The position numbers and the translations under genes are program-made. DNA of 64,000 nucleotides from a virus, in the IMG/VR virus record IMGVR_UViG_3300044678_003030, positions 29,957-93,956 of that record; one strand, written 5' to 3'. This document shows, in pieces, positions 1-51,746 of the stretch. The notes under the pieces are model-generated. The model had not been told where the DNA came from. It was given only the letters and a program-made list of their open reading frames with translations, and made no database searches. Position 1 is the stretch's first letter; each line of letters starts with the position of its first letter.

Positions 1-855
1 AAGCACTTGGACTCGCCGCATGTTTTTGCGCACGAGTACGGGCACCACCAGTTCGATCAAACACCTATCGGTAGCGCTGTTCAACACCCTGTTTTTCGAG
101 GGATTTCTAACTACGCGAACATCCCGTTGAGCGCTTTGGCGGGAGTTGCCGCTGCTCGTTCTGACAAGAAGTGGGCTCCTTACGTAGGGGCTCTTGCTCC
201 GGTGTTGACTTCGTTGCCAGTTCTCGGCTCTGAGTACATGGCGACGCGGAACGCTATGGGGCTTATGCGCGACGCTGGGGCTTCCACGCAGCAGATCGCT
301 GACAGTAAGAGAGAGCTCGCTGGTGCGTATGGGAGTTACGCGACACAAGCCCTGCTGGCAGCAGCCGCGTACGCCGCGCCGTTTTTGGCGAAGAAGTACT
401 GGCGTACAGCTCCTCCTCCCCCCAGGTGGGGAGACGAGGAGTACATCAGAGGAGGGGAGGAAAATACCAAGGCGGCATCGCTCTTGGATATGGCGCCGAA
501 CTGGGATAGCCCTGTGCGCGCGCGTGTGATTCAGGGAGGGGTAACTGGCGGCGCGGCGGGGCTTCTCGCGGGCATTCCCGTAGGTCTTTTGGCTCCAAGG
601 CTGTATGGTGGTAGCGACGACCGGCTTAGGGGTGTGTTGTCGGCAGCAGGCAGCATGGGGCTATTGGGTATGGGTTCCGGTGCGATAGCAGGCAGCGTTC
701 TTGGTGGTTACGAAGAAGGGCTTCAATACGGGAGTCATCCCGATAAGTACGACTATGACCCGATTGTTCAATACACCTATCCCCCGGACCCGCTCGGGGC
801 GGTAGCCAATAGGCTCGGCGTTCGCGATGGTGAGCGTTTTCGGGGTGCTCGGTGA
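1..855 (+). CDS. Metalloprotease-like membrane protein, 5' end missing
   Basis: The reading frame is open from the first base, so the true start lies upstream and at least 284 residues remain. Near the visible N-terminus the sequence AHEYGHHQ contains an HExxH zinc-metalloprotease motif (HEYGH). After it come several alanine/glycine/leucine-rich segments that could span a membrane (about residues 35-70, 105-125 and 175-195) and glycine-rich stretches near residues 210-235. The gene ends in a GTGA overlap with the giant downstream gene, so the two are probably translationally coupled. HExxH alone is a short motif, so peptidase activity is inferred. The glycine-rich membrane style resembles other virion-associated proteins in this window. 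Confidence 0.6.
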   Translation, partial: KHLDSPHVFAHEYGHHQFDQTPIGSAVQHPVFRGISNYANIPLSALAGVAAARSDKKWAPYVGALAPVLTSLPVLGSEYMATRNAMGLMRDAGASTQQIADSKRELAGAYGSYATQALLAAAAYAAPFLAKKYWRTAPPPPRWGDEEYIRGGEENTKAASLLDMAPNWDSPVRARVIQGGVTGGAAGLLAGIPVGLLAPRLYGGSDDRLRGVLSAAGSMGLLGMGSGAIAGSVLGGYEEGLQYGSHPDKYDYDPIVQYTYPPDPLGAVANRLGVRDGERFRGAR

Positions 856-3800
856 GCCACTCCCACCGCTGGTCGTCTTTCTACGTCCCCGGCGACGCCT
901 ATCGGTACTGCGCGTGCGGCGCGATCGAGACGGTCTCGCCGGATGGCGAGCACGGGCCTGTGCCGGCCAAGGAGGAGGGATTCGTCCGTCGCCACATCGA
1001 GCGCCTGGAGAAGAGCGCGGAGGCGCTCAAGAAGACGCTTGGGCCCTTCACCTTCGAGATCGATCGGCCCGAAGGAACTACGAAGGCGTGGCCCGGTGGC
1101 AAGTCCTTTACGTACCCCGTCGACTACGGATTCTTTCCGAAGCTCGAAGGGGAGGACGGGGAGGGACTGGATGCGTTCGTGGGAGATGACCCGCACGGTC
1201 ACCTGGAGTCCTTCCAGAAGCTCAAGCCGAACAAGGACGGCAAGCTCGTCGCCGACGAGACGAAGTACCTGCTCGGCGTGAACGACCGTCAACGCGAGAC
1301 CATCTACAAGCTCTACGGGCGAGAGATCAACGCGCGTCGCGTGTACGACACATGGGAGGCGGTGGAGCGGTCGTTGGCGCGGTTCGAGAAGGAGGCGTCT
1401 GAGCCGGAGGAAACTCCGGTTTGGGAGAAGGACGTTCGCGACGCCGCCGGGGTTGCGCTCGCAGGGCTTGGCGCACGAAGTCTTGCGCATGGGGCTGCGG
1501 AGGACCTGCTAGGCGCGCAGAGGTTCTACCACGGTACTGGTGATGCAGCGGCAGCGGCGATTCGCCGTGATGGCCTTTTGGCTTCAATGGGAGGTAACCC
1601 CAACGGCAGTGCGTCTCTTTCGGGAGTCCAGTCTTACGTAAAGAATTCAAAGGGTCATGTACACGTCGGCACGGGCTTTTTAGGTGCGCAGGCGGCTCGC
1701 GGCTACGCCTCGCTCGTGGATGCCAAGGAGCGTAATCCGCTTCTTTCCAACGAAGGCGCAATGTACGCGTACCTGCGTGGGATGGGCCCTGGGCACAAAG
1801 GCACTGTTCTTCAGGGCGCTGTCCCGTACGAGTGGCTCTCCAGCAACTTTTCACCGGACCCTGATAGCGGCGGTAGCAGCGCTGCCCTCAAGGGGCAGGT
1901 GGACATCGGAGCCTCCCACATTTCAGACGGCGCCGTAGGTCTTCGAGACCTCTACAAGAATCGAGCTCCTGACCTCCTTGGGTACGTGAAGCGCAACCCA
2001 CGTCGTGTTGCGCATGGCGCCTTGATGGCCGGAGGGTCTTTGGCCGCTGTGTACGCTGCATATCGACTGGCCAAGATGATCCAGGACCGACACAGTAGCC
2101 CAGAGCAGGAGCCTGTTGTGGAAGCAAAGCTCGGAGCTGCCGATGCCCCCTCGAATCTTCTCGGACTCGTGGGCACGCCTCAGTACTACCTGACGCGCGC
2201 CGCTGACTTCCGTCGCCGACACCCTGATCTCCGCGCTCCTGACTACTACAACGAGTACGGCGATCGCTACGCCCACCGCTTCGAGAGCCAGACTCGTCCT
2301 CGGCTCTCTCCGGCCGGGCAGGCGTGGTTCGACAAGACCAAGCACGGCCTTCAGTATGCGATCGAGCAGAAGCGCCTCGAAGACCCTGAAGGGTTCGACG
2401 CCCTTGAGCGTGACCCCAAGGCGTTCCACCGCTTCGCGTACGACACGCACGGCCCGGTGTACCTGAACTCAGGGATTCGCAAGCTGCCGCTGCGCGACCT
2501 CATGCGCGTGGCGCGCACGCCAGACCTCAAGGATGTCATCAACCGAGATGGTCTACGTCTTGTGGGGCAGGTCTTGAATCCGTTCAACAAGGCGGCCTCG
2601 GTCAAGGAGGCGCGAGTCCCTACTCATGTGAAGCAGTACCGCCGCGCGCTTCAGATGTTGGCAGAAGGGCAACACGACTTCCACGGCACCGCGAATCTTC
2701 CTGGTGTTGTACGGACCGGTCGTGTTGTTGGCGGGAAGAATGACGCGTACCATACAGGCGGCAAAGCGTACTTTTCGCGCGGTTTTCCACTGGCTGAGTA
2801 CTTTGACTACGAGACCTCGAAGTACAACGATGGAGGGTTCGCCTTCCCTCGTGTACAGATGGACAAGAACAAAGCGGAGATCATTCCGGGGACACCTGCA
2901 ACCTTGCCGGTTCCCTACGTAGCTGCTTGGCACGCCCCCCTTCAACAGGGCGCTACCGTCTTTGTGACGTCTCCCGCTGCGAAAGTGCGCGAGGCAGCAA
3001 GCGCCGCGCAACGTAAGTTCAATCTGCGCCGCGTTGACCCCGAGGCTTACGCCCTCGCCGTTGAGACCCTGAAGGGCAACGTGTCTCCTGGTGCTTCCCA
3101 GCACATACTCAAGAACCTCGAAGGTCCGTATACCCCGGTTATGCCAGCGCCTTCAATTTCCGCCTCCTCTGTTGCAACCCCTCCCGCTGCGCCCTCTGTC
3201 TATTCCATCCTCAATCGCCGCAACGCCGCGATCGCAGGCGGTACCCTCGCCACGGCTGCCGCGCTGTACGGAGGCCACCGTTGGCTTCGTTCACGGCGTG
3301 AAAAGGAACAAGAAAAGGTCGCTGACGCAGTGGAACAAGACCCGTCCGAACAGCCGCCGAAGAAGTCCTGGCTACGTCGCAACGCGGCCCCGATTGCAGG
3401 GCTGACGACGGCAGCGGTAGTTGCACCGCTTCTCTATCGCTACCTGCGTAAGCAGCGACTGAGCAATGACCCCGCACTCCGCTCGATTCAAGAGGCATCG
3501 GGCGGCAGGTTCGGCCGCATCCTTGAAGGGCGGCAAGAGGCGATGTCTGCGCCACGTCGTTGGCTCGACCGATTGATCTACTCAGGTGGCGGCGATGTCC
3601 ACTACCAGGACAACCTCATCGAGGCGGCGCGCAAGAGTGGCAAGGTGCCGCAGGTTGAGGGGGTGCTCCTTCACAACGCGCCAGGGAAGCAGCTTGCACA
3701 GGGGGCCTCAAACCTTATCGCGAATCGTGATTCCGATGCGGTGTCGAGCATCTTTGACAACGGTAACAAGTGGCAGGAGTACAACATCTTCGAGCACTTT

Positions 3801-4862
3801 GCGCCGGGGTCCATGGGAAAGACCGAGAACGTTGCAGACGTTCTCGCTGACATGGGGCACAACCTCGGAGCTCGCAACCCGCGAGAGCGCGGACAGCAGG
3901 TCGAAGCCTTCCGTAAGGCCATGTCCAACAACGGCGCGCGTAGGCGAGACATGCTCGCGGAGCTTCAGAGTAACCTCCGTCAAAGGTTTGGGGACGGCTT
4001 CCTTCTCAAGGACGTCGACGCTGCTGCTACGGGGGGGAAGTTCCCCTCGGATCTGCACAACTTCACAGATCTTGTGAACGAGGATTCGCCTGCGGCGAAG
4101 ACTCTGATCAACGCGATCAAGGATCCGCGAAGTGTGATCGCGCAGTCGAAGCTGCCGCTCGCTCAAGGATCGTGGCTCGACCGGCAGTTTGCCAAGCTCC
4201 GTGGCCTGCCATCTACGCAGGAAGTTCGTGTCCATGTGATGAACGGTGCGGTCGCCCCGGACCTCACAGTGCCGCGCTTCTCTCCGACGATGTGGCTCAC
4301 CGGACGAAAGACGATGCGCGGCGCGGACCAGTACGCGCGTGATCTGCTTACGAAGTTGCCCGAGGAGCTTCAGCGCGGGACGTATGCGATGGACGTCGCA
4401 CCGCTCGTGGGTGGCGGGTACAAACTCATTGAGTCTAATCCTGGTTACCGTAGTGGTTTCTTGAGCCCCGGTAACCATCCGGTAATCGGACCTCTTCTGC
4501 ACAAGCAGTTCACTGGCCAGCACAGCCAAATGGTTTCTGGCCTTGGTGCCGGCGCGGGCGCTGTTGGCGGAGGGCTTACGGCAGCGGCTGGTGCGCGGTA
4601 CCTCGCCAACCGGCAGCAGCCGGAGCAAGAGTCTGAGCTTCACGGCGTGAAACAAGCCAGCGCCTTCGACGCCCTCAACTGGGTCCCCGCTCCTTTCCAG
4701 GGGCGCGTGCAGTCCCCGCAAGAAATCGTCTACGCCGCGCGCTCTACCCCTGCTCTCGCGGCGACACAGGAGAACCTTCGGCTGCTTCAGGTCGCCCAGG
4801 ACCCCTACGGCACCGGGTCTCCGACGCAGGGCGTCTCTCACCATCGACGTCATCACGGCTAG
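852..4862 (+). CDS. Giant multidomain protein: pyrophosphatase-like, two ADP-ribosyltransferase-like and an ATP-grasp-like region
   Basis: This 1336-residue protein starts at GTG 852, overlapping the upstream stop. Residues about 55-180 resemble family-I inorganic pyrophosphatase: GPFTFEI, YPVDYGFFP and DGEGLDAFVGDD, with the second aspartate of the DGDxLD motif replaced by glutamate. Near residue 225 FYHGTG, and near residue 609 DFHGT followed by GGKAYFSRGFPLAEYF, resemble the conserved start and core of ADP-ribosyltransferase domains. Hydrophobic segments lie near residues 385-410, 790-810, 845-866 and 1220-1245. Close to the C-terminus AMDVAPLVGGGYKLIESNPG resembles the metal-binding end of ATP-grasp enzymes. 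Known of such mosaics: they are often effectors. Inferred: a virion-injected host-modifying polyprotein. Domain calls are by eye; the long intact frame is certain. Confidence 0.6.
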   Translation: MSHSHRWSSFYVPGDAYRYCACGAIETVSPDGEHGPVPAKEEGFVRRHIERLEKSAEALKKTLGPFTFEIDRPEGTTKAWPGGKSFTYPVDYGFFPKLEGEDGEGLDAFVGDDPHGHLESFQKLKPNKDGKLVADETKYLLGVNDRQRETIYKLYGREINARRVYDTWEAVERSLARFEKEASEPEETPVWEKDVRDAAGVALAGLGARSLAHGAAEDLLGAQRFYHGTGDAAAAAIRRDGLLASMGGNPNGSASLSGVQSYVKNSKGHVHVGTGFLGAQAARGYASLVDAKERNPLLSNEGAMYAYLRGMGPGHKGTVLQGAVPYEWLSSNFSPDPDSGGSSAALKGQVDIGASHISDGAVGLRDLYKNRAPDLLGYVKRNPRRVAHGALMAGGSLAAVYAAYRLAKMIQDRHSSPEQEPVVEAKLGAADAPSNLLGLVGTPQYYLTRAADFRRRHPDLRAPDYYNEYGDRYAHRFESQTRPRLSPAGQAWFDKTKHGLQYAIEQKRLEDPEGFDALERDPKAFHRFAYDTHGPVYLNSGIRKLPLRDLMRVARTPDLKDVINRDGLRLVGQVLNPFNKAASVKEARVPTHVKQYRRALQMLAEGQHDFHGTANLPGVVRTGRVVGGKNDAYHTGGKAYFSRGFPLAEYFDYETSKYNDGGFAFPRVQMDKNKAEIIPGTPATLPVPYVAAWHAPLQQGATVFVTSPAAKVREAASAAQRKFNLRRVDPEAYALAVETLKGNVSPGASQHILKNLEGPYTPVMPAPSISASSVATPPAAPSVYSILNRRNAAIAGGTLATAAALYGGHRWLRSRREKEQEKVADAVEQDPSEQPPKKSWLRRNAAPIAGLTTAAVVAPLLYRYLRKQRLSNDPALRSIQEASGGRFGRILEGRQEAMSAPRRWLDRLIYSGGGDVHYQDNLIEAARKSGKVPQVEGVLLHNAPGKQLAQGASNLIANRDSDAVSSIFDNGNKWQEYNIFEHFAPGSMGKTENVADVLADMGHNLGARNPRERGQQVEAFRKAMSNNGARRRDMLAELQSNLRQRFGDGFLLKDVDAAATGGKFPSDLHNFTDLVNEDSPAAKTLINAIKDPRSVIAQSKLPLAQGSWLDRQFAKLRGLPSTQEVRVHVMNGAVAPDLTVPRFSPTMWLTGRKTMRGADQYARDLLTKLPEELQRGTYAMDVAPLVGGGYKLIESNPGYRSGFLSPGNHPVIGPLLHKQFTGQHSQMVSGLGAGAGAVGGGLTAAAGARYLANRQQPEQESELHGVKQASAFDALNWVPAPFQGRVQSPQEIVYAARSTPALAATQENLRLLQVAQDPYGTGSPTQGVSHHRRHHG
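3290..3302. repeat. Dispersed dyad TTCAC-GGC-GTGAA, site 1
   Basis: Exact match to the 13-bp dyad. It lies inside the giant + strand gene and is read there as Ser-Arg-Arg-Glu, directly after a hydrophobic segment. Confidence 0.85.
4639..4651. repeat. Dispersed dyad TTCAC-GGC-GTGAA, site 2
   Basis: Exact match near the 3' end of the giant gene, read as Leu-His-Gly-Val-Lys. Same spacer as site 1 but read in a different codon phase. Confidence 0.85.
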
Positions 4863-24357: not shown

Positions 24358-26226
24358 TCAGGACAGGAGTAGCGCACCAAGCGCGCCGCTGAAGTCGTCG
24401 AGCGATAGGGTAGGCGGTTCGGTCGAGTCTTCTGCCTGCTTCTCCCAGCGCTCGAAGTGATCATCGGCGAGATCTGAGATGCGGGTGCGGCGTCGCATCT
24501 CTGCGGCCATGTTCCCGCTGTGGCATTGCGCCGGCAGCCGCTCGGCGTAGTCCGAGGCAAACTTGGCCAGGACGGAGGCCAGCTTGAACTCGGTTCCCCC
24601 GGAGACGCGGACGCCTTGGTCGGTCAGGTACGCCGGGTTCCGGTACGGGCGAGCGGCGCGTAGAACGTGAGGGGCGGTCACTGCGCCAAGTCCGATTCCA
24701 CCGAGCGTAGAAGCCACGGGGTTCACGCCGCCGAGCCCGTAGAGCCCGAGCCCGTAGAGGGCTGACAACCCGACCGTCGTACCTACGAGACCCTTCATGT
24801 CTTCGTGGTTGGCGCGCATGGCGGCGCCACGGGTCGTCGTGTAGCGGTGCCCCGTATTCGGGTCCGTCATCGATAGGAGATCGGTCCTCGGCGGTTCTTG
24901 CGCAGAGGTCAGATAGCCGGGTCCGAGAGGAGGGTCGACCGTCTGGTTCACGCGCTGCTTGAGCCAGTCGTCCATCGAGGCGAGCTTGGCTTCGACCTCT
25001 GCGGACGGGCGCCTCGGGTCGATGGTCACATAGGCCCCGAGCTCTTCGGCGAGCTTCGGGTATCGCCCCATGATCGAGAGCACGGACGGCTGGAGCGTGA
25101 CCATCCTGTCGAGCAAACGAGCAGAAGGGATCACGCCTGCGGTCTTGCGCAGGAAGACGCGCGCGAACTCGCTCGCCGTGAGAGACGCGTTCTTGGACGC
25201 GAGCGTCGAGAGCAGGGCGTCGAACGGCAAGCCAGCGAGGTCAGCGACTTGCGCCTCAGTCGCGCTAACCGGAGCCTTGAGGGGCACGGTCTGCCGGTAC
25301 TGGCGGATCGCCTGGATGTCGGGCGCTGTACGGACAGCCTCGATGTCTCCCGCGATCTCCTTCTGGATGTCGGAGACCTTGTTTACGGCCGCTCGCTTGG
25401 CTTCGTAGTCGGCAACCTTTTCACCGAGTGAAGCTCCTGTACGGATCACGTACGCATCCTCGGCGACCTTCTTGAGCATGAACCCTGTGCGGTCTGCCGG
25501 GCGCCACACGAAGGAGATGTCGAAGAAGCTCGGTGATGGGTTGAGCGCGCAGTTCCTGATCCCCGTCGCCGGATCGATCTGGCGCATCGCCGAGCGGAGG
25601 TGCTCGCAGTAGTCCTTGCGGGTCGGGGCTCGGTGTCCGCACTTGGCGCACACGTCCCAACGGACGTTGCAGCCCATCGACACAGCCGGGAATTCACCTG
25701 CGTTGATCTTGCCGACGAGCTCAGGGTCGAGGCGATTCCTGATCTCCAGCAGGAGCTCGCTCCGGTGCATGGAGCTGTTCCAGAACGCCTTCTCGATTCG
25801 ACCGAGCGACTTGCGGGGGTCCTTGTTGACGTGGTGCTTGTAGATCCCGCCACGTGTCTCGAAGGTCTTGTAGTGCTGGGTGACAACTTCGTCCGGGGAG
25901 ATCCAACCTTCGAGGTTGCGCGGTTGACACCCTGGATGGCCACAGGTTGCCCGCTCTCCCACGCGGTAGGTGCGCTCCGGGAAGGCGTCGCCGTTGCGGT
26001 TGTCATCGTAGTACTCGTAGGCGCCGAACGCGTTGACGAGGACGATCGTGCATCCTTCGCGAGGGGTGACCGTCTTGATGTAGTCGAACGCCTCAGACGC
26101 GGTCTTTTCGGACGAACCCGGACGTTCGGTGTACCAACGGCCCTTCTCAGAACGAGCGATGACGCGCAGCGTCGGTTCGCCGGTCTTGGGGAAGTAGTCG
26201 TCGAGCTCGATGATTTTGGTGAACAT
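24358..26226 (-). CDS. Prohead maturation protease candidate with long C-terminal extension
   Basis: A 622-residue protein. In the first 190 residues, FGAYEYYDDNRNGDAFP, IYKHHVNKDPRKSLGRIEKAFWN and INAGEFPAVSMGCNV resemble the strand with the catalytic histidine and the nucleophile-serine segment of phage prohead serine proteases; the serine of AVSMGC would be the nucleophile. Cysteine pairs (CGHPGC, CAKCGHR) add zinc sites not usual in small prohead proteases. The C-terminal 400 residues hold three Lys-x-Ala motifs and a glycine-rich hydrophobic segment near residues 490-530. Position upstream of capsid genes fits. A longer-than-usual length and unverified catalytic residues limit confidence. 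Confidence 0.5.
   Translation of the reverse strand: MFTKIIELDDYFPKTGEPTLRVIARSEKGRWYTERPGSSEKTASEAFDYIKTVTPREGCTIVLVNAFGAYEYYDDNRNGDAFPERTYRVGERATCGHPGCQPRNLEGWISPDEVVTQHYKTFETRGGIYKHHVNKDPRKSLGRIEKAFWNSSMHRSELLLEIRNRLDPELVGKINAGEFPAVSMGCNVRWDVCAKCGHRAPTRKDYCEHLRSAMRQIDPATGIRNCALNPSPSFFDISFVWRPADRTGFMLKKVAEDAYVIRTGASLGEKVADYEAKRAAVNKVSDIQKEIAGDIEAVRTAPDIQAIRQYRQTVPLKAPVSATEAQVADLAGLPFDALLSTLASKNASLTASEFARVFLRKTAGVIPSARLLDRMVTLQPSVLSIMGRYPKLAEELGAYVTIDPRRPSAEVEAKLASMDDWLKQRVNQTVDPPLGPGYLTSAQEPPRTDLLSMTDPNTGHRYTTTRGAAMRANHEDMKGLVGTTVGLSALYGLGLYGLGGVNPVASTLGGIGLGAVTAPHVLRAARPYRNPAYLTDQGVRVSGGTEFKLASVLAKFASDYAERLPAQCHSGNMAAEMRRRTRISDLADDHFERWEKQAEDSTEPPTLSLDDFSGALGALLLS
25420..25432. repeat. Dispersed dyad TTCAC-CGA-GTGAA, site 12
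   Basis: Exact match inside the protease candidate gene, read on the - strand as Ser-Leu-Gly-Glu. Confidence 0.85.
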
Positions 26227-29847: not shown

Positions 29848-32592
<2,745 letters not shown>

Positions 32593-32607
32593 TGCTCCTG
32601 ATGGGCG

Positions 32608-32645
32608 AACGCCCGGTTCTCCCAAGGATAGGGAGACCGGGCGTT
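32608..32645. other. Hairpin in the leader of the Met-rich gene
   Basis: Ten-base perfect arms (32608-32617 with 32636-32645), extended by five more pairs after one bulged base, with a seven-base loop. No T run follows on either strand, so a leader or processing structure is likelier than a classical terminator. It abuts a dispersed dyad. Confidence 0.6.
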
Positions 32646-32657
32646 TCACGCCGTGAA
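32645..32657. repeat. Dispersed dyad TTCAC-GCC-GTGAA, site 15
   Basis: Exact match in the gap between late genes, sharing its first base with the adjoining hairpin. Confidence 0.85.
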
Positions 32658-38933: not shown

Positions 38934-41900
38934 TCAGCCGATTTCGACGGGGTCGTCGACTTTGACTTCGCCGCGACGCCATGCCGCAACGGCTTCGGCC
39001 TCAGTCTTGAATCGACGCACAGGTTGCGCCTTGTTGGGCGTGTACTTGAGCGCGTGCGTGATCCCGATGATCGCCTCGTGCTGCGGAAACGCCATCAGCT
39101 TGTTGGGCGTCTGGTCGGAGAGCAGCAGGTGGGACATTGTCATGCGCTTGGCGTCGTCGATACCTGCGCGGGTGAGCGGTACGTGAACCTGAAGGGTGTC
39201 ACCGTCGTAGTCCAGGTTGAAGCCCTTCTCCACGAAGGGCGAAACCCTGATCGTCTTCCCCATCGTCGGCTGTGCGTACGCGGCGACGATGCCGAAGCGG
39301 TGGAGCGTCGGCGCGCGGTTCAGTAGCACAGGCCGCTCCTTGGTCTCTTCCACGAGGCATTGCTTCGCAGCAGGCGCCCGCTTGTCGACGAGCTCTCGTG
39401 CGTGAAGCGCGCTGTAGCCCTTGCGCACCAGTCGAGCGACCAGGAGCTTGTCGAACATCTGCCAGAGCATGTCTTCAGGCAGGCTCACAGCGTCCATGTG
39501 CAGGTTGCCGTCAGGCACCGCCGTACCACGGCCAGAGACGTCTTGCTGCCTCTTCATCAGCTTGCGCTGGAAGAAGCCACCCTTTGGTGACCCTTGCCCA
39601 GAGACCTGAGTCAAGAACCCCTTGACCTCCTCCTTCTGGAGCTTCTGGTCGTCGACGGTGTGGGTCCCGAACACGGCTCCAACGGCGTTGTAGAGCGCAG
39701 CCCGGTGCTTCGGAACGTCCGAGTCAAGGACGGCGTCCTTGACGGCGTCGTTCACGTCCATGAGATGCCCGTAGAGCTTGTTCGCATCGGCGACCATGAG
39801 CTGAGACGGGTTGTTCTTCTGCTGCGTGATCGGGCGGAAGATCGGCGGAATCACAGGCACCTTCGAGAGTACGTAGGCGTTCTCCGGTCGGAGCCCCTCG
39901 GCCTTGAGGGCGCGTAGGTACTTGATCTGCTTCACCGCGTTGTTCAAGTCGCTCGCCTTGAGCATCGGCAGCTTGCCCTCAAGCTCCTTGAGTTTGGCGT
40001 CGATGTTGATGCTCGCGAGCTCCTTCTTGATGTGCCCGCCGCCCTTCTCCTTGAGGAGGTCGGTGAACCGCTTCTCGGTCAGTCCGAGGAGGCGCCGAAT
40101 CGGCTCCTCAAACACCGGGTTGGGCATGGCCTCGTGAAGGTCCACGTGGGAGTAGAGCGTGCCCTCGGTGCCGCCCGTGAGGAAGGGGTCAAACAGCCCG
40201 CCCTTTTCGGGCTTGAGGTTCTTGGCGATGAGGGTCTTGCTGTTTTGCACAGCACCCGAAGAGCGCGCCATGATGTCAGCGTCCGTCGCCGGCAGCAGGC
40301 GGAACTTGGAGCCATCCTTGCGGACCTTGACTCCCGCGCCTTCGAGCATCGCCTGGAACTTGTTGAAAGCGAACGACGGACGGTTCGCCGGGAGGGGCTG
40401 TCCGAGCTGAATCGCGCGCCAGAACGCCTCGTTCTTCTGCCCTCGGATGTTGGCGGCGTCGGAGAGCATTCCGCGTGCGTTGTGCGCCAGCAGCGCATCC
40501 ACCTCCATCTTGCCGAGGCCCTTGGCGCCTTCTTCGCCACCCTGCTTGAGGGGCTGCTCGTTGGCGTCGTAAGGGCCGACACCGTGGCCCGCGAAGTTTG
40601 TGTCCGTCGACTTGAAGAGCTTGAAGATGAAGCTCCGACCCACGAACACACCTTGTCCGTCAGGGCCGACGATCTTTCGGCCGCTCACAGGGTCGTGTAC
40701 GTGTTCGTACCCGCTGACGTTGTGCTCCTTGGCGAGCCTCTCGACCCAGTCGATGGCGTTCTCGGACGACGCGTTGTCGAAGAAGATCGGCTTCTTGGTC
40801 TTCTCCGCGATCTTACCCGCCAGAGCCTCGTGGAGCTGCGCCGGGTTGATGCGGGAGACCACGCCCGCGCTCGTCATCAGTAGCTCAACAGGATTGCCTG
40901 CGGAGTCTTTGATCATCTCCTTGTCGGAGACGATCTTGGCGACCACGCCTTTCCCGCCGAAGCGGTTCGCCAGCTTGTCGCCGACCTGCATCTGCTCGTG
41001 GGTCTTCACGAGGACCGCGATCTGCGTCGGGGTACGCACGACGTCGACGACTTCTCCCTGCGTCCCATGCTCCCAGGACAGGGAGACTTCCTGCCAGGGC
41101 TTGGTGAGCGTCTTGGAGATCTTGCCGAGCATCAGGTCGGTGCCGGTGACCTGTGCCTTGGCGAGTCCTGCGACGAGGAGGTCGTGGTGGTTTACCTTCG
41201 CCCCCTTCTTCACGACGCCGGTTTCGTCGAGCTGCGCATACTGCGAGGGTTGGTACTTCGCGCCGAAGTAGACCTTGTGGCGCTTCGCCGAGAGCTCGAT
41301 CGTCGCGTTGAGCGGAAAGACCTCGCGGTACATGTGCTCGGAGGTCATTCGCTTGGCGAAGCCCTCGCTGATCACCACGGCGTCGTTGGAGTTCAGCCCG
41401 TAGTAGGGCATGTACGCGACACGCGCGTTGAGCCCTGACGCGAGCGTGCCGTTGCGCGTGAAGTTCGAGTCGCCGAGCATCTGCCCCATCTCGACGGTGT
41501 CGTTGGCCTTCACCGAGAGGGTGTGGTGCAGGCGCGTCTTCGAGGGGAAGGGGAAGTTGTCGCTGTAGGGGACCTTGATGAGCTCACGCTCGCGACGGGC
41601 CGCTTCTTTCACCGAGTGAACCTCGGCCGGGCTCGGGTTTTCCCACGGGGCGTAGCCGTGCATAAACCACTCACCGAGCGAACCCGTATTGAGATCATCA
41701 AGGCTGTCATCATGCGTAAGCTGCGGGGGCAGGACACCGTACACCACATCAGCGGCTAGCCGGGGGAGACGCTTGCCGGCAGAGGCCAACGCACCATCCG
41801 CGCCAGGGTAATTGAACATGTACCGAACGTCGCGCCCGGCCAGCCCTGCGTTCATTGCGGCGTGGTTTGCCCAGATGCGCCCGTAGCTCGCCGTCTTCGA

Positions 41901-44006
41901 CCCCTTCCGGTAGTCCTCGATCTCTTCCTTGAGATCATCCCAGGAGGCGTACTCGACGCGGTTGACACAGCGAGTCTTCGGCTTGCGCTCGATCTGACGC
42001 AGGACCGTGTCGACCTTCTCCATGGGGACGCCGACGATGAACTTCACATCGGCCGGCTTCCACTCACCATCTTCGTTCTGTTCGTCGGTGTCGACGGAGA
42101 CCAGGGCGCCGTCAGGGTCGTCACCGACCCAGAAGTCCAGGGAGTCGCCATCAGGGCCTTCGAAGCCCGGGAGGTAGCCATAGTCGCAGGGGAAGGGATG
42201 ACCCCAGGGCTTCTCGCCCTTCTCGATCTCGATTTCGAAGGTGAAGGGCCCGTGCTTCTTGGACTGCGCCACCGGGCGGTCCGCGAGCTTCTCTTCCTCT
42301 GCGGCCCTCTTGGCGCGGCGCGGCTCAATGTAGATGAACCCGTGTTCGATCTTGCGCACAATGCCGCTCACGGGCGCGAGCGGCACAACCATGCGGCCGT
42401 AGAAGTCCTCATAGGACCCCCCGTCCGGGTGTTTGACCTGCACCAAGGGCGCCTCCCGCTGAAGCAGTGGCAGACCCTGTGTCTGCATCTTGGAGCCCAT
42501 GATCGCACGGTTCCCCTGGATCGAGTGCAGGAGAGGGATCAGGCTCGTGGCCGGCGAGTAGGTGTGCGAGACGTGGAGCTGCTGATAGTCAACGTCCTTG
42601 GCGTCGACCTTCTGGACCTGCCCTTGGTGAAGCGCGTCTACACGCCCCTGCATGCGCTGATGCGGGAAGGCGATGACTTTGCTCATCATGTCCGAGGCGT
42701 TCACGAACTCGGTCTTGTTGGTCCGTGCGTTCCTGAGCGGTGTGTAGAGGTTGCCCTCTTCGTCTCGGTGAGCGGCGATCGTGGCGCGGATGTCGACGCC
42801 TGCGTGGCCGCTCTCTGGCGTGCGGATCGGGTCGAGGATGCCGAAGTGCGTCGCGTGCGTGAGGCGTGTTGAAAAAGGGATCGCGCGCTCACTGGGAATG
42901 CCGCCCTCTCCGAGCGCTGTGACCTTCACCGAGTGATCGAGGAGCTCAAGCGGGTTGATTCCCGTGGGCACCGCTGAAAGGGCGCTCGACGTGATGAACT
43001 GGCGCAGCGGCTGGGAGAAAGGAGCTGGCTTGAGAGAGCCTCGGATCTCCTGCTTGCCGTTGAGCGCCATGCGAGCCTTCGGAGCCCATTCGCGCGCGGT
43101 GAGCTTCACGCGCTCTGCGAGAAAGTCGTCCACGCTGTGGAATGTCTTGAACGCGAGCGAGTCGGCGTCGTCCTCCGGGTCTTGACCCCTGTGCACGCGG
43201 AGCAGCTTTTGCGCTGCGGCGAGGAGCGCAGGCGGGGTGACCTTGTCGTGTGACGCCCCGAGCGTGATGCGCGTGACGTGCGCGTCCATCACGGTGTTTC
43301 CGAAGCGCTTGATGACCTCTGCGAGCTTCTCGGTGTGGCTCGCCTTGGCATTGAACACGGACTCGTGCGCGAGCTTTTGGTAGAGCTTCGCGATCGAGAT
43401 CTCCTCCTTGCCGCCGAAGAGCGCCTTGTTGGCGTCAGCGATGGGAGCGCCGAGCTCGCGCGCGATGACCTCATGGGTGACCCCGAGGGCGCGTAGCACA
43501 GGGTAGAGCGGGATGTTCGTCGAGTCGTAGACGAGGTAGAACGCTGACTTCGCCGGGTCGATCGTGACGTTGAAGTTCGCACCCTTGGAGAGGTTGAACG
43601 TCGTGTGCAGCTCCCCGTTCGCGCTCCGCTGCGTGTACGCGCCAGGACGGCGACGCAGCATGTTCGCGATCTGGTACTCGTTGCCGTCCATCAGGATGGT
43701 GTGGCGTTCGGAGAACCACGGGAGGTGCGTGAGGGTGAAGTTGCGCGCCTCGTTGACGATCTTCCCGTCGCCGTCTTTCAGGACGAGCGTCCCCTTCACG
43801 GGCTCAGAGAGCGAGTCGCCGGTGAGGAGCGCGTGCTTCTGCTCCTCAGGGGAGAAGTCTCGCGCGAGCACCTTGATGTCCTTGACCTCCAGGGTGCGAC
43901 CCTTGAGATCGACGGGGAATGCGCGTTCGAGCTCCCTGACGACTTTCCCGCGCACATTTTCGCGCAGCGAGTGGGCGTCGGTGAGTACAGGTGACAGGAC
44001 AGGCAT
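38934..44006 (-). CDS. RNA polymerase beta / beta'-N-terminal fusion with inserted pyrophosphatase-like domain
   Basis: A 1690-residue protein combining beta with the N-terminal half of beta'. Beta motifs: ILDPIRTPESGHAGVDI near residue 390, YGLNSNDAVVISEGF near 865, KLANRFGGKGVVAKI near 1010 and NPAQLHEALAGK. Beta' motifs: RPVLLNRAPTLHRFGI and NLDYDGDTLQ, the latter keeping all three catalytic aspartates, near residue 1600. Residues about 583-700 interrupt beta with GPFTFEI, CDYGYLPGFEG and DGDSLDFWVGDD, hallmarks of family-I inorganic pyrophosphatase, followed by a SKTASYG motif. It needs the separate beta'-C gene at 35397. No alpha or omega subunit is recognised in the window. Confidence 0.93.
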   Translation of the reverse strand: MPVLSPVLTDAHSLRENVRGKVVRELERAFPVDLKGRTLEVKDIKVLARDFSPEEQKHALLTGDSLSEPVKGTLVLKDGDGKIVNEARNFTLTHLPWFSERHTILMDGNEYQIANMLRRRPGAYTQRSANGELHTTFNLSKGANFNVTIDPAKSAFYLVYDSTNIPLYPVLRALGVTHEVIARELGAPIADANKALFGGKEEISIAKLYQKLAHESVFNAKASHTEKLAEVIKRFGNTVMDAHVTRITLGASHDKVTPPALLAAAQKLLRVHRGQDPEDDADSLAFKTFHSVDDFLAERVKLTAREWAPKARMALNGKQEIRGSLKPAPFSQPLRQFITSSALSAVPTGINPLELLDHSVKVTALGEGGIPSERAIPFSTRLTHATHFGILDPIRTPESGHAGVDIRATIAAHRDEEGNLYTPLRNARTNKTEFVNASDMMSKVIAFPHQRMQGRVDALHQGQVQKVDAKDVDYQQLHVSHTYSPATSLIPLLHSIQGNRAIMGSKMQTQGLPLLQREAPLVQVKHPDGGSYEDFYGRMVVPLAPVSGIVRKIEHGFIYIEPRRAKRAAEEEKLADRPVAQSKKHGPFTFEIEIEKGEKPWGHPFPCDYGYLPGFEGPDGDSLDFWVGDDPDGALVSVDTDEQNEDGEWKPADVKFIVGVPMEKVDTVLRQIERKPKTRCVNRVEYASWDDLKEEIEDYRKGSKTASYGRIWANHAAMNAGLAGRDVRYMFNYPGADGALASAGKRLPRLAADVVYGVLPPQLTHDDSLDDLNTGSLGEWFMHGYAPWENPSPAEVHSVKEAARRERELIKVPYSDNFPFPSKTRLHHTLSVKANDTVEMGQMLGDSNFTRNGTLASGLNARVAYMPYYGLNSNDAVVISEGFAKRMTSEHMYREVFPLNATIELSAKRHKVYFGAKYQPSQYAQLDETGVVKKGAKVNHHDLLVAGLAKAQVTGTDLMLGKISKTLTKPWQEVSLSWEHGTQGEVVDVVRTPTQIAVLVKTHEQMQVGDKLANRFGGKGVVAKIVSDKEMIKDSAGNPVELLMTSAGVVSRINPAQLHEALAGKIAEKTKKPIFFDNASSENAIDWVERLAKEHNVSGYEHVHDPVSGRKIVGPDGQGVFVGRSFIFKLFKSTDTNFAGHGVGPYDANEQPLKQGGEEGAKGLGKMEVDALLAHNARGMLSDAANIRGQKNEAFWRAIQLGQPLPANRPSFAFNKFQAMLEGAGVKVRKDGSKFRLLPATDADIMARSSGAVQNSKTLIAKNLKPEKGGLFDPFLTGGTEGTLYSHVDLHEAMPNPVFEEPIRRLLGLTEKRFTDLLKEKGGGHIKKELASINIDAKLKELEGKLPMLKASDLNNAVKQIKYLRALKAEGLRPENAYVLSKVPVIPPIFRPITQQKNNPSQLMVADANKLYGHLMDVNDAVKDAVLDSDVPKHRAALYNAVGAVFGTHTVDDQKLQKEEVKGFLTQVSGQGSPKGGFFQRKLMKRQQDVSGRGTAVPDGNLHMDAVSLPEDMLWQMFDKLLVARLVRKGYSALHARELVDKRAPAAKQCLVEETKERPVLLNRAPTLHRFGIVAAYAQPTMGKTIRVSPFVEKGFNLDYDGDTLQVHVPLTRAGIDDAKRMTMSHLLLSDQTPNKLMAFPQHEAIIGITHALKYTPNKAQPVRRFKTEAEAVAAWRRGEVKVDDPVEIG
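41608..41620. repeat. Dispersed dyad TTCAC-CGA-GTGAA, site 18
   Basis: Exact match in the RNA polymerase gene, read on the - strand as Val-His-Ser-Val-Lys. A one-mismatch relative lies at 42925 in the same gene. Confidence 0.85.
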
Positions 44007-44365: not shown

Positions 44366-44815
44366 GCCCATTGCCCGGCGAGAAGACGCTTCGAGGTCTT
44401 CTTTTGTCTTCGGGCGAGCGACACCGACGGACTTGATGATCGTCCCGTTCTTGAGCGTCGTCGTCTCGGTCTCGTAAAACCGACACACCCCGTCCGCGCG
44501 ATCTTGCAGCAGCTTTCGGTAGTCCTTGATCTGCGTGTGGGGGCAGGTGTGGTCACCCTCATCTGGTAGGACGAGGGTTCCAGCCTTGTGCCTCCCGCGG
44601 CACAGCGCGCACGACTCCCACGGGCGGAATACGACAAAGATGCAGTGGTCGAGGTCCCACTTCATCTGCTCGATCGCCCGACCGAAAGGGTTCCTCGGAT
44701 CGTCTTTTGGCACTCTCGGGTGAGCATCCTCGGGGCCGAGGGGATTGCGCAGCCCGCGTGCTTGCTTGTCTGCGGCGTCTGCCGACTCCGCGAAGTTCTC
44801 GGTGCTTGTGTTCAC
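44342..44815 (-). CDS. Cysteine-containing protein after the portal
   Basis: A 157-residue protein. CIFVVFRPWESCALCRGRHKAG, then CPHT and CRFYET, contain five cysteines and nearby histidines consistent with zinc binding at residues 55-115. GTG 44815 overlaps the portal stop by four bases (GTGA), so it is co-translated with the portal. No family recognised. The C-terminal tail coincides with the terminator hairpin. Confidence 0.6.
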   Translation of the reverse strand: MNTSTENFAESADAADKQARGLRNPLGPEDAHPRVPKDDPRNPFGRAIEQMKWDLDHCIFVVFRPWESCALCRGRHKAGTLVLPDEGDHTCPHTQIKDYRKLLQDRADGVCRFYETETTTLKNGTIIKSVGVARPKTKEDLEASSRRAMGETRAPKL

Positions 44816-46542
44816 TGCATACCACCTTGTGCTGCGCCGCCCTGCATCGAGCTGCGTGCCTCTGCTTCCTGGTTCTGCTGGATCTGCTGGATCCTTTGCA
44901 TGACCACTGCGTGCAGGATGGGTTGTGATCCTTGCAGGTTGTCGACGGCGTTGGTCCTCGCCGCCTCGTCCATCTGCATGTACTCCTGCGCCTTCTGGTC
45001 GGCCGCGCCCATCACTTGATCCGTGTTGTTGTAATCGATTGGCCCCGACGCCTGGGACTGTTGACGCGCTCGCTGGCTGAGGGAGGTCTGGATCTTGTTG
45101 ACTTCGAACTCCAGGATCTGCTGCTCCCGTAGGTCGTCGATGGTGTCTTGGCGGCGCTGCTTGCGTTCGTGGTCGGCGTCGATCTCGAACATCTCGTAGA
45201 TCGTCGTATCCGAGATTTTCCCCTGCCCCCAGAGCTGGAGCATGAGCTCCTTGCGCGCCGTGTCGTCGATCATCTTGAAGTCGCTCAGGCGCACGTCGAT
45301 CGGCGTGGTACCCAAGAACTTCGCGGTTTTGAGCTCGATCCAACGGAAGAGCCCGTTCAGGTTGTTGATGTGGTTCTGGAGCTGGTTTTCTATCATTCGC
45401 AGCGTCGTCTCGCCGCGTGTCTGCCCGAGACCGCCTTCCAGGAACTCCCTCGGCACGCCGAAGGCCAGCATGATGTTCTTCTCGGCCGCTTCGAGCTCGG
45501 CGAACGTCAGCATCGCGCGGCCTTGGCCCCCGATGTCCTGTACGCCGACGGGAACAGGGGAGATGATGATCTTGTTCGGGTCGCGCTTGAAGTCGCGGAA
45601 CCCTTGTTCCATCTTCTCGCGGAAACCGTCGAGGTCGAGCGACATGCTCGGGTCCCCTGCCACCCCTTGACCCGTGGGGTGAATCACACGCATCGGCGTG
45701 ATGTGTTCGAGCGCGACGGCTTCGTTGCCGCGCCGGAGCGCCGCCGCGAAGAGGAACATCTCGATCGCCGCTGCCACAGGGGGCAATCCCCACTCCGGTC
45801 GAAGACCCGACAGGTTTGGCATCTTCATGTGGTAGAGGTTGCCCTCGTTGAACCGGAGGAGCTTGCCCTTCTGCACCGTCTTCAGGATGCTCATCGGCAT
45901 CGTGTTGATGAGGTGCTGGTCCCCCGCGCGAATGTCCTGTCGCAGGTCTTGCGGGATCTGGAAGTAGTAGACTGACTGGTTGGTCAGCGGGTTGTGCTTG
46001 ATGTCGAGGAGCTTCGGGTCCCACCGGGTGAGATTCAGCCGGCGCGCGTCGACGAGAGGGATGTCTTTGATCTGCGCGCGCACAGCGTTTCGGCATCGTG
46101 GGCAGTCGTACTTGATCGTCAGCTTCTCCAGCGAGAAGTCGTAGTCCTCGACTGCGACGATGTCGGTCTCTGCGCGGCACCTCGGGCAACAGAGCATCCG
46201 CTTGAACGGCTCGTAGAGCGACGCTGCCGCGTTGCCGTAGACCCAGGCGTCGAAGGACATGACACCCGCGAACTCACGCGCCCGAAGGTGGTCGTCATAG
46301 AGCTCACGGTGGCGTTGGCGCTCGGCCACACCGACGTCGCCGAACTTGAGCTTGGTGAGTGGATACTCGCCAAACTTACGCACGACGGCGTATACGTGAG
46401 GCGAATGCTGAAGAAGCACCTCCGCCCAGTAGAAGCATTCCTTGATCGTTCTCGGGCGAGAACGACGGAAGATCGTGTCGAGGGGGTGCCCATGCAAGCC
46501 CTCCCGCAGGAAGGGCGATCGTTCGCCAGCGTAGTCGAGCAA
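44812..46542 (-). CDS. Portal protein with an inserted zinc ribbon
   Basis: A 576-residue portal protein, the dodecameric channel for DNA packaging at the head vertex. The central and C-terminal parts match portals: helical stem-like segments, NIMLAFGVPREFLEGGLGQTRGETTLRMIENQLQNHINNLNGLFRWIE, and a Gln-rich C-terminus. Cysteine pairs CCPRC and DCPRC near residues 116 and 145 form a zinc ribbon that is not usual for portals. The start is taken as TTG 46542, with GGAG nine bases upstream supplied by a dispersed dyad; a later start is possible. It opens the reverse late block. Confidence 0.8.
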   Translation of the reverse strand: MLDYAGERSPFLREGLHGHPLDTIFRRSRPRTIKECFYWAEVLLQHSPHVYAVVRKFGEYPLTKLKFGDVGVAERQRHRELYDDHLRAREFAGVMSFDAWVYGNAAASLYEPFKRMLCCPRCRAETDIVAVEDYDFSLEKLTIKYDCPRCRNAVRAQIKDIPLVDARRLNLTRWDPKLLDIKHNPLTNQSVYYFQIPQDLRQDIRAGDQHLINTMPMSILKTVQKGKLLRFNEGNLYHMKMPNLSGLRPEWGLPPVAAAIEMFLFAAALRRGNEAVALEHITPMRVIHPTGQGVAGDPSMSLDLDGFREKMEQGFRDFKRDPNKIIISPVPVGVQDIGGQGRAMLTFAELEAAEKNIMLAFGVPREFLEGGLGQTRGETTLRMIENQLQNHINNLNGLFRWIELKTAKFLGTTPIDVRLSDFKMIDDTARKELMLQLWGQGKISDTTIYEMFEIDADHERKQRRQDTIDDLREQQILEFEVNKIQTSLSQRARQQSQASGPIDYNNTDQVMGAADQKAQEYMQMDEAARTNAVDNLQGSQPILHAVVMQRIQQIQQNQEAEARSSMQGGAAQGGMQ

Positions 46543-46547
46543 GGGGG

Positions 46548-46560
46548 TTCACTCCGTGAA
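46548..46560. repeat. Dispersed dyad TTCAC-TCC-GTGAA, site 20
   Basis: Exact match in the junction between the divergent portal and SNF2 genes. Its GTG is a possible helicase start codon, and on the other strand GGAG within it precedes the portal start. Confidence 0.85.
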
Positions 46561-48649
46561 ACTTGAGGGAAGCATCGTGAATCATACGCCCGTGTTCGTC
46601 CTGCGGACTAGGGACACGGGCGAATGGCGAAAGGCGTGGGGCGCGTCGCCAAGGAAGGACGACTGGATCTTTCCTGCGTACTATCCGTTTGGGCTGCGCA
46701 CGCTTGAAGACCTCGGGCGCTTTTGCCCTGGCATTACGCTCGATCCAAGCGCCGCAAAGTGGCGCGCGAAGCTCATCGAGGCTCGCGCGCTGGAAGAAAA
46801 GGCAGAGAAGTCGTGGGCCGGGAAGCAGTTTTCAGAACTCCCGTTGCCTTCGGGGTATAAGTTTTTCCGCTCACCGTTTCGGCACCAAACCTACGGGGTT
46901 GCGGTTGCTTACGCGCGCTGGCGGAAGTTCTTCCTGTGGGACATGGGCGTCGGGAAGACCGGTACGGTGCTTGAGCTCGTCCGGTTGCTCAAGGCGCTCG
47001 GTGAGTTCGAGAAGACGCTGATCATGTGCCCGCCCGTCGTGCTCTCAACCTGGGAGCGCGAAGCCAAGAAGGTTTCAGACGGTGAGATCAACGTCGTTGT
47101 GTGGGACGGTGACTGGATCAGCGACAGGGAGCTGCGGACACGGGGGTGGATTCCGCCCCGCAAGGACGTCAAGGGCACTTCCCGTGTCCCTTTTGTCCGC
47201 GAGGTTCTCACAGAACGGGCGGCGTCTGCCGACCTCGTCGTCGTGAGCTACCCAATGGCGCGGATTGAGGCGCAAGCAGCGTTCAAGGAAAACCGCGACA
47301 ACCCGCTCAGCGTCCTTGGCTTTGGGATGGCCGTCGGCGACGAGTCTCATACGCTCGGCGACTACGACAGCCAGACGACCCGTGCCGCGTTGGAATACTC
47401 CTCTAGGGCCGGGAGAAGGATCCTTCTCTCGGGGACTGCGGCGGATCATCCCAAGAAGCTCTATCCCCAGCTTCGCTTCCTCGCGCCGGGGCTGCTCCCT
47501 CTGGATTACCGGGGGTACCAGAAGCGCTACCTCGTCAAACACCCGTTCAACAAACACATCGTCGTCGGCTACAGCAACCTCAACGAGCTCAACGAGAAGG
47601 TAGACCTCGTTGCCTCACGCATGAAGAAGGCCGACTGTCTCGAAGACCTCCCCCCTCGTACGACCACGGACGTCCCGTTCCGCCTGGGGCCCAAGCAAGC
47701 CAAGCGGTACAATCAGCTCGTCGAGGAGGCTAAGGCGACGGCTGATCTTTTTTCCTCGCGCCCCGCCAGAGTTTCTTTGCGCGTGCTCACGCCAGAAGAC
47801 GAAGAGTCCATCGCCGAGGGCGACTACATCGTTCCGCCTGTTCACAAGGAGGACAAGGCATACGTCGCGGCAGCCGAAGGCGGCGTTCGCGTTTCGAAGC
47901 TGCGCCAAGTGCTCTCTGGGTTTCTTCACACGTCGCTCGACATGACTGTCTGCGACGGGTGCGACCGGATGCTCAAGTGTGTGGATAGGCGTGTGAAGCC
48001 GTACACCCCTGCGTGCAAGATAACTGAGCCGCCTCCCCTGGAGACGGTGCGCGACTTTGAGAACCCACGCCTTGACGTCTGTAAGGCGCTCCTCTCGAAC
48101 ATCCTCAACAACGACGAGACCAACAAGGTCATTATCTGGGCGAACTTCCGCCAGGAGCTTGACGACCTCGCGGCGCTTTGCACCTCCCTCGATGTTGGCT
48201 TCGTACGCGTAGATGGTTCTACGGGGTCCAAGATCCGCCACCTCGAAGACAGGTTCGAAGCGGATCCTTCGTGCCGCGTGTGGGTCGCGCAGAGCGCAAC
48301 AGGTGTTGGCATCACGCTCAATGCCGCCAACTACACGATCGACTACGCGCCGACATGGGATCGAGTGCACGACAAGCAGAAGCGTGACCGTAACTACCGG
48401 GCAGGGCAAACTCGCCCAGTCACGGAGTACAGGCTCTACGCCGACGGGACGCTTGACGAGTTCATCCTTGCGACGCTCGCCTTCAAGGACGATGTCGCGT
48501 TCACCATGCTTGAGAAGATTCGTTGCACGGGGTGTGACCACCGTGCGCGCTGTGCCAAGGAAGAGATCCGCCCTTTTCAAGAGGGCTGTATCCATCAACC
48601 GGACGTAACCAAGCTCAAAGGAAACGTTTCCGTGGTTGACGCAGACTGA
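46556..48649 (+). CDS. SNF2/DEAD-type helicase
   Basis: A 697-residue superfamily-2 ATPase. FRHQTYGVAVAY is the Q-like motif, DMGVGKTG near residue 130 is Walker A, GDESHTLG near 262 is the DExH box and LLSGTA is motif III. The second domain has VIIWANFRQ, GFVRVDGSTG, QSATGVGITLNAA and DRNYRAGQTRPV (motif VI). Two similar cysteine clusters (CDGCDRMLKC...C near residue 465 and CTGCDHRARC...C near 660) suggest paired zinc or iron-sulfur sites. Such phage enzymes remodel replication or recombination intermediates. GTG 46577, with GAGGGA upstream, is an alternative start. Confidence 0.88.
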   Translation: MKLEGSIVNHTPVFVLRTRDTGEWRKAWGASPRKDDWIFPAYYPFGLRTLEDLGRFCPGITLDPSAAKWRAKLIEARALEEKAEKSWAGKQFSELPLPSGYKFFRSPFRHQTYGVAVAYARWRKFFLWDMGVGKTGTVLELVRLLKALGEFEKTLIMCPPVVLSTWEREAKKVSDGEINVVVWDGDWISDRELRTRGWIPPRKDVKGTSRVPFVREVLTERAASADLVVVSYPMARIEAQAAFKENRDNPLSVLGFGMAVGDESHTLGDYDSQTTRAALEYSSRAGRRILLSGTAADHPKKLYPQLRFLAPGLLPLDYRGYQKRYLVKHPFNKHIVVGYSNLNELNEKVDLVASRMKKADCLEDLPPRTTTDVPFRLGPKQAKRYNQLVEEAKATADLFSSRPARVSLRVLTPEDEESIAEGDYIVPPVHKEDKAYVAAAEGGVRVSKLRQVLSGFLHTSLDMTVCDGCDRMLKCVDRRVKPYTPACKITEPPPLETVRDFENPRLDVCKALLSNILNNDETNKVIIWANFRQELDDLAALCTSLDVGFVRVDGSTGSKIRHLEDRFEADPSCRVWVAQSATGVGITLNAANYTIDYAPTWDRVHDKQKRDRNYRAGQTRPVTEYRLYADGTLDEFILATLAFKDDVAFTMLEKIRCTGCDHRARCAKEEIRPFQEGCIHQPDVTKLKGNVSVVDAD

Positions 48650-50897: not shown

Positions 50898-51746
50898 CTA
50901 GAGCAACTCGCTCACGTCTGTGACACCGAGCGTGTCCAGGTACACCTTGAGCTTCCCCAGCCCTGCGTCTCGGAGCGCGGCGAGTTCGAGCGTCGTATAG
51001 ACCGACCCATCGATCGCGAAGAGCCTGAGAGCGAGCTCGTCAAGGTCGTGCTCCCCGTCTCCGATAAATCCGTAGATGTAGGAGAGGACGAGGCGTTCAC
51101 GGCGTGAAAGTCCGGCCTTGACCATGTGCCGAACGAGCGGGGCCACGTCTGACGGGCTGGCGTCGCTAGCCAGTGTCTCAGGGTCGACCGAGGCGAACGT
51201 AGGCTCCTCGAACGAGTAGTCACGCCGCTGCCCGAGGGCCATCTCAGCCTCTTCGACTCGGCGTTGTCTTCGGTTGGCCTTGCGGACGTGGTTCGGGACG
51301 TGGACCAGTTGGTCGCGGTTGAGGTACTCCTGGATTCTGACGTTGATCCAGTAGTCGGCGTAGGTGAGGAACCGCGTCCCGTGTGCTACGTCGAAGCGGT
51401 ATACGGCATCCATCAGGCCGCAGTTGCCCGCGCTGACGAGCTCCCTGAGGAGCTGTTCGTCGCGCGTGTATTTTCGCGCCACCTTGATCACGAAGCGGAG
51501 GTACCCCCTCGGGATCGTCTGCTCCAGCCGCGTGACCTTAGCTTTCCAGACCTTGAGGTCGCTCTCGATCCGGCGCCGCTTCTCTCCTGCTGGCAGCTTG
51601 TTGAGCTTCTTCTCGGCGCTCTCGACGCTTTGACGCGCGACCAACAGGTTGGTGAAGTTCTCTCTTTCTTGCGCGGCGGTAGGCTGTGTCTCACGCCCGA
51701 CCTCCAAGAAGTAGACGGACGCGATGCGGTCCTCACGTTGACTCAC
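50898..51746 (-). CDS. Sigma-70 family RNA polymerase sigma factor
   Basis: A 282-residue sigma factor. Region 2: YLRFVIKVARKYTRDEQLLRELVSAGNCGLMDAVYRFDVAHGTRFLTYADYWINVRIQEYLNR (about residues 80-145) contains the core-binding and -10 recognition helices. Region 4-like: GLSRRERLVLSYIYGF and the C-terminal ELAALRDAGLGKLKVYL. Region 1.1 is absent, as in alternative sigma factors. GTG 51746 has TTAGGAGG six bases upstream. It is the only reverse gene in the right-hand module and so has its own control. It could program the phage polymerase encoded here or host core enzyme. Confidence 0.9.
   Translation of the reverse strand: MSQREDRIASVYFLEVGRETQPTAAQERENFTNLLVARQSVESAEKKLNKLPAGEKRRRIESDLKVWKAKVTRLEQTIPRGYLRFVIKVARKYTRDEQLLRELVSAGNCGLMDAVYRFDVAHGTRFLTYADYWINVRIQEYLNRDQLVHVPNHVRKANRRQRRVEEAEMALGQRRDYSFEEPTFASVDPETLASDASPSDVAPLVRHMVKAGLSRRERLVLSYIYGFIGDGEHDLDELALRLFAIDGSVYTTLELAALRDAGLGKLKVYLDTLGVTDVSELL
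51096..51108. repeat. Dispersed dyad TTCAC-GGC-GTGAA, site 22
   Basis: Exact match within sigma region 4 coding sequence, read on the - strand as Ser-Arg-Arg-Glu. Confidence 0.85.

Follow-up and report, generated by a model that had tools for sequence, protein, structure and literature searches.

A pyrophosphatase-like domain inserted in the beta region of a phage multisubunit RNA polymerase

The locus described here lies in a 64,000-nucleotide stretch of viral DNA (the window, by which we mean the whole stretch analysed), which comprises positions 29,957 to 93,956 of the IMG/VR record IMGVR_UViG_3300044678_003030, a contig of 93,956 bases that is probably a fragment. On its minus strand a long open reading frame (ORF), P0003, encodes the beta subunit of a multisubunit RNA polymerase fused to the N-terminal part of beta′. 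Within the beta region is a domain related to type I inorganic pyrophosphatases (InPase). An initial annotation of the window, made from the sequence alone, had read this domain as a built-in means of removing pyrophosphate (PPi) that may assist a newly injected polymerase, an interpretation that as a whole is partly supported by our computational analysis.

The polymerase and its inserted domain

The sequences flanking the domain are those of a normal beta subunit, as previously proposed, with Pfam matches to PF04565 and PF04561 on the N-terminal side and to PF00562 on the C-terminal side. PF00623, the double-psi beta-barrel (DPBB) that forms the catalytic barrel of beta′, is matched near the C-terminus, and PF04997 scores below its cut-off. 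The sole beta DPBB match of the record is in P0003. Core residues of multisubunit polymerases are present, with the DxDGD aspartates in NLDYDGD (D1599-D1603) and the two beta lysines in GDK1011...GGK1019, and they are invariant in an alignment with the polymerases of Salmonella phage Arash and Vibrio phage D69. P0003 shares 35-36% identity with these proteins over its whole length (36% with Arash gp206).

The initial annotation located the domain correctly at residues 583-700 (42260-41907), where GPFTFEI, CDYGYLPGFEG and DGDSLDFWVGDD are all present, but the insertion is larger than had been stated, spanning residues ~569-808, and the InPase takes up only ~576-705 of these. Alignments reveal that the insertion is missing from Arash, D69 and most IMG/VR relatives. 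Both Arash gp206 and the D69 protein run straight from ...GVVTKADATSVHI into ...VDFVKNLPFNMKGF...GDKV, and the junction is constant across relatives, being located C-terminal to '[GTV]xKIDxxFIYIEP' and N-terminal to 'LxKVPYxxNFPFPSKTxLHH'. On alignment with the T. thermophilus sequence the junction falls at the turn following 'DGNRIVVR', and in an AlphaFold2 model of the window beta fragment beta strands flank the insertion directly on both sides. The ~95 residues that follow the InPase are predicted to be disordered, with a predicted local distance difference test score (pLDDT) below 50 for residues ~723-789, and residues 708-803 have no Pfam match.

The domain matches the InPase family PF18823 with 29.4 bits when a 144-residue stretch is searched and with 28.3 bits in a genome scan (cut-off 26.8), although the score in whole P0003 is 23.6 bits, just below this threshold. 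Inserts of related polymerases reach 113.6 bits. A control profile made from InPases of other phages (about 30 sequences, none of them polymerase-borne) scores the window insert at 28.6 bits, compared to a maximum of 9.0 for 2000 shuffled inserts, and gives scores below zero for GNAT-type inserts at the same site. PF00719, which describes the soluble family I enzymes, is not reached by the window domain. AlphaFold2 models the InPase part with a pLDDT of ~95, and the best 50 Foldseek matches in the PDB are all inorganic pyrophosphatases (probability 0.96-1.00, best E 3.7e-4), so an unrelated fold was not seen. Since the disordered tail is part of the model, TM-scores over the whole chain reach only 0.25-0.35 by query. 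A profile of 42 InPases also matches solved M. tuberculosis pyrophosphatases (E 4.6e-6). Its match to the C-terminal domain of the solved phage portal 9b41 is very strong (E 1.5e-41).

Alignments to solved pyrophosphatases point to E593, Y609, D619, D621, D624, D653 and K655 as putative active-site residues, which we take to be the counterparts of E20, Y55, D65, D67, D70, D102 and K104 of the E. coli enzyme, with D653 equated with D102 by pattern only. Loss of metal-binding residues had been named as a possible refutation of the annotation, but the acidic ligands E593, D619, D621, D624 and D653 are all kept. Conservation among the 42 InPases peaks at the metal-binding and catalytic residues: Y609, D619, D624 and K655 are invariant in every one, polymerase-borne examples included, and the other metal-binding positions are mostly Asp or Glu. 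The domain resembles soluble family I pyrophosphatases (PF00719; E. coli and M. tuberculosis Ppa) in its predicted fold, active-site Tyr, Asp triad and Lys. It differs from them in being embedded in another protein and in having only ~110 residues. InPases of the PF18823 type lack a hairpin that classic enzymes carry between strands 1 and 2; in the window domain the sequence between the first strands is short, and the hairpin may likewise be missing. Profile searches, fold prediction and comparison among relatives all support the identity of the domain, its placement within beta and the retention of catalytic residues. Residues, fold and selection (see below) suggest that the insert can work as a type I pyrophosphatase and is held on flexible linkers.

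Table 1. Features of the polymerase locus and related genes, in window coordinates.
Feature	Position	Strand	Remarks
RNA polymerase beta fused to N-terminal beta′ (P0003)	38934..44006	-	1690-residue ORF, uninterrupted
Entire insertion, residues ~569-808, at a hairpin turn in beta	41583..42302	-	no counterpart in orthologues
InPase (type I inorganic pyrophosphatase) domain, residues ~576-705	41892..42281	-	PF18823, fold
Putative active-site residues E593, Y609, D619, D621, D624, D653, K655	42042..42230	-	alignments to solved pyrophosphatases
KTAS motif, residues 704-707, C-terminal edge of InPase	41886..41897	-	KTA enrichment
Remainder of insertion, residues 708-803	41598..41885	-	mostly disordered linker, pLDDT mostly 25-58
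Second InPase domain, N-terminal part of 1336-residue polyvalent-like protein	1041..1385	+	ORF 852-4862
C-terminal part of beta′, second polymerase gene, 607 residues	35397..37220	-	PF04998; 31% identity to Arash gp216
Portal protein, directly upstream of polymerase gene	44812..46542	-	29% over 553 residues to Arash portal gp204, E=1e-97
Sigma-70 family factor	50898..51746	-	Sigma70_r2 PF04542, 43 bits
Head maturation protease-like protein	24358..26226	-	phrog_18299, E 1.2e-5

Inserts at the hairpin in related polymerases

Relatives of the polymerase (up to 68% identical, 120 of them non-redundant) were collected by scanning IMG/VR with polymerase alignments, which were required for this purpose; a query with a single polymerase recovered no relatives. 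The initial annotation had called for a search for the same insertion in phage polymerases, and an InPase is indeed found at the same hairpin in 14 of the 120. Two other relatives have a GNAT acetyltransferase there with Pfam scores above the cut-off (L151:5862-10661 and L161:967-5856), and one has a 69-residue Cys-rich piece. InPase is the most frequent passenger at the site, accounting for 14/17 inserts. The remaining relatives carry 0 to ~35 residues at the hairpin, with two exceptions that aligned short, and insert length at the site spans 0-543 residues. Some inserts are composite: that of L132 (543 residues) consists of an InPase, a P-loop kinase-like domain and an unassigned segment, and that of L143 joins an InPase to a segment that is ParB-like by eye. 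One relative, L140, scores above the PF00719 cut-off. Among annotated phage records with a polymerase match, none was seen with an insert, and the full-length polymerases of Arash, D69 and D181 lack one. In Vibrio phage D181 beta itself is split by an annotated homing endonuclease (L005:7525-8423), and the D148 polymerase matches in the same two pieces.

A tree of the polymerase core, built without the insert columns, implies at least four gains or losses of the InPase. In one clade (support 100/100) the InPase is present in 9/9 sampled rows. A tree of the InPase domains, which deserves moderate trust since long branches meet and deep branching is uncertain, sets the subtype of the window polymerase apart from that of the nine-row clade, which groups with ordinary phage InPases (SH-like approximate likelihood-ratio support [SH-aLRT] 98). 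Because the two subtypes are split by a supported branch, the inserted InPases appear to represent at least two families that were recruited at least twice to one site. The nearest annotated relatives of one insert family lie in portal or minor head proteins, the solved portal 9b41 among them. No stretch of an alignment of all InPases is conserved enough for scanning.

Inserts of the uniform nine-row clade are under purifying selection as strong as that on the polymerase. Their ratios of nonsynonymous to synonymous substitution rates (dN/dS) are 0.02-0.11, compared to 0.04-0.10 for adjoining polymerase sequence, with synonymous divergence near saturation in several pairs.

The sister domain that the initial annotation reported in the giant gene near the start of the window is also real. 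This second InPase is 38% identical to the polymerase copy (E 2e-18), carries DGEGLD, and matches PF18823 with 22.5 bits in the whole protein, which is below the cut-off, and with 26.7-27 bits in a frame scan. In the domain tree its nearest neighbors are L044 and the InPase of the L212 polymerase. The window polymerase is sister to that of L212 (100/96), yet their InPase subtypes differ, and the L212 domain is instead closest to the second copy of the window. This arrangement suggests that InPases may have been exchanged between the polymerase and other injected proteins. Scans of bacterial and archaeal genomes with both InPase copies found none. The protein carrying the second copy (852-4862, plus strand) has no match among 50,697 phage records; it also contains two YHGT-like stretches resembling ADP-ribosyltransferases by eye and gives a weak ATP-grasp R2K_3 match (E 0.057).

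Virion packaging and possible roles of the insert

On its downstream side the polymerase gene is followed by the gene for the C-terminal part of beta′ and then by head genes. The portal-polymerase-beta′ order is conserved, also in Arash, and homologues of the portal and of the beta′ C-terminal part are present in 167/187 and 128/187 related loci, counts that are limited by contig ends. In the virion proteome of Arash, gp206 is the most detected protein (3516 spectra) and gp216 is the fifth, with the caveat from the authors that abundant proteins may be carried over (PMC10585845). The window polymerase is orthologous to these two proteins (36% and 31% identity) and shares their gene order with the portal, although the Arash polymerase has no insertion at the hairpin. 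Orthology and gene order together indicate that the polymerase of the window phage is probably packaged in the virion. The newly injected state invoked by the initial annotation thereby gains real support, given the Arash data and the position of the window gene in a head module.

A KTAS motif borders the InPase at its C-terminal edge. In putative late or virion proteins of the window (15662-38106, minus strand) KTA occurs 23 times against 3.9 expected, often as KTAS, KTAG or KTAA, while replication proteins show no strong enrichment (3 observed, 1.9 expected). Ratios in relatives are 0.9-4.6. The head maturation protease may recognise KTA, a proposal that is weakly supported outside the window phage; the protease-like protein itself has no Pfam match.

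We consider it fairly probable that the polymerase is packaged in the virion, that the beta hairpin is a hot spot for 'polyvalent' effector domains, and that the InPase most likely hydrolyses PPi to the benefit of early transcription. The polymerase would enter the cell with the DNA, and effector domains placed in the hairpin would ride in with it. An active pyrophosphatase on flexible linkers could then remove PPi made by the polymerase during the first rounds of transcription. Such a function is plausible and has been proposed generally for injected phage InPases (Iyer et al. 2017, PMC5512222). It would curb reversal of the reaction wherever the cell offers too little host pyrophosphatase or none. 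Some other small phosphoanhydride may be the substrate instead. Computation establishes the domain, its fold and site, its recurrence, at least two recruitments, purifying selection in one clade and the gene order; packaging in the window phage, enzymatic activity and substrate are inferred. A more far-reaching version, which we hold only tentatively, treats the virion polymerases of these phages as a new class of polyvalent carriers, with the hairpin as an exchangeable bay for injected enzymes, repeatedly filled by an InPase that makes the polymerase self-clearing for PPi during first transcription, and with KTA cuts that may free the bay or its passenger.

Several observations weigh against hydrolysis of PPi on behalf of the polymerase. 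Pyrophosphate diffuses and the pyrophosphatase of hosts is abundant, so tethering would be useful only in special conditions. The Arash polymerase is found in virions without an insert, and in the clade of the window polymerase the insert comes and goes (5/12 rows). Unlike soluble pyrophosphatases, the window domain lacks clear counterparts in alignment for several active-site residues (K29, E31, R43, Y141 and K142). Moreover, the hairpin also accepts a GNAT domain, so it is not reserved for chemistry related to transcription.

The variety of passengers (GNAT, ParB-like and P-loop kinase segments) fits the delivery of effector cargo at least as well, which keeps alive the possibility that the polymerase is a mere vehicle. 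The target of the InPase would then be a nucleotide of the host or of a defence system, or else the free PPi pool of the host, independently of transcription by this polymerase, and the head protease might first release the domain. This reading fits the frequent occurrence of InPases in other injected proteins of the polyvalent and portal types, the second InPase of the window phage in a polyvalent-like protein, and the KTA motifs at domain edges along with a head maturation protease-like gene. However, release by the protease is a candidate step that is unproven, and the predominance of InPase among the inserts, together with its repeated recruitment, hints at a link to transcription. We judge this explanation possible but on balance unlikely.

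It is more doubtful still that the pyrophosphatase fold serves for docking or oligomerisation, for instance by anchoring the polymerase to the portal or within the capsid, with catalysis being irrelevant. Family I pyrophosphatases are oligomeric, and InPase domains also occur at the C-terminal end of portal proteins, but conservation is greatest at metal-binding and catalytic residues, and the insert-free Arash polymerase is packaged as well. An insertion that is neutral or parasitic, or an artefact of assembly, might suit a site that tolerates many lengths and an insert that is gained or lost within the clade of the window, but we reject these explanations as highly improbable because the same junction is seen on independent contigs from many metagenomes and the low dN/dS values come from a clade whose sampled members all keep the insert.

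The InPase domain, its presence in injected phage proteins (polyvalent and portal proteins) and the PPi idea are already known from Iyer et al. 2017 (PMC5512222), so the remark in the initial annotation that no such fusion had been described stands for the polymerase fusion in the literature searched but not for the domain itself. The InPases treated there (PF18823) are like the window domain in family, in short form by profile and in phage setting, but an InPase lying within beta, a catalytic subunit of multisubunit RNA polymerases, is not mentioned in the part covered. The literature searched, which left out most subscription papers, yielded no InPase within beta, no such hot spot and no convergent filling of it. 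In group 1 Bacillus jumbo phages an HD phosphohydrolase is fused to the C-terminal part of RNA polymerase beta (PMC7824862), and there too a phosphohydrolase is joined to a phage multisubunit polymerase, but the fold is unrelated, the fusion is terminal and the polymerase lineage is different. The mReC phages (Weinheimer and Aylward 2020, PMC7481178) are likewise uncultured tailed phages with their own beta and beta′; pyrophosphatase, insertion and virion packaging are not mentioned in that report.

Repeated insertion of InPases in this group of uncultured tailed phages, with key active-site residues retained, suggests either a polymerase that clears away its own by-product or one that smuggles an extra enzyme into the host. 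If the domain is active, it would give a natural multisubunit RNA polymerase its own pyrophosphatase, an arrangement reached by evolution on at least two occasions at the same position. Injected multi-enzyme proteins, as a concept, would come to include the transcription machinery itself, and PPi as a limit on transcription right after phage entry becomes open to testing. The hairpin also shows where beta can accept foreign enzymes of 100-500 residues.

Other features of the window and its relatives

A gene for an SNF2-type helicase (46556-48649, plus strand) adjoins the portal and polymerase operon on the opposite strand; in jumbo phages a Rad25-like helicase is linked with their polymerase. 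A probable head protein (29848-32649, minus strand) has a long Met/Gly/Gln-rich tract with GMDPSMMGQMGGM repeats.

The organization of polymerase genes varies among relatives. In L013-L020, L033, L039 and L041 the sequences for beta and beta′ occupy separate frames with 0.2-3.6 kb between them. More distant relatives (L174, L177, L178, L180, L183, L185 and L206-L208) have single ORFs of 2000-2600 residues that apparently encode beta and most or all of beta′. In L132, L134, L135, L157 and L158, ~330-350 added residues interrupt beta at a conserved RTPES sequence, corresponding to P0003 residue ~399, and these interruptions are probably inteins.
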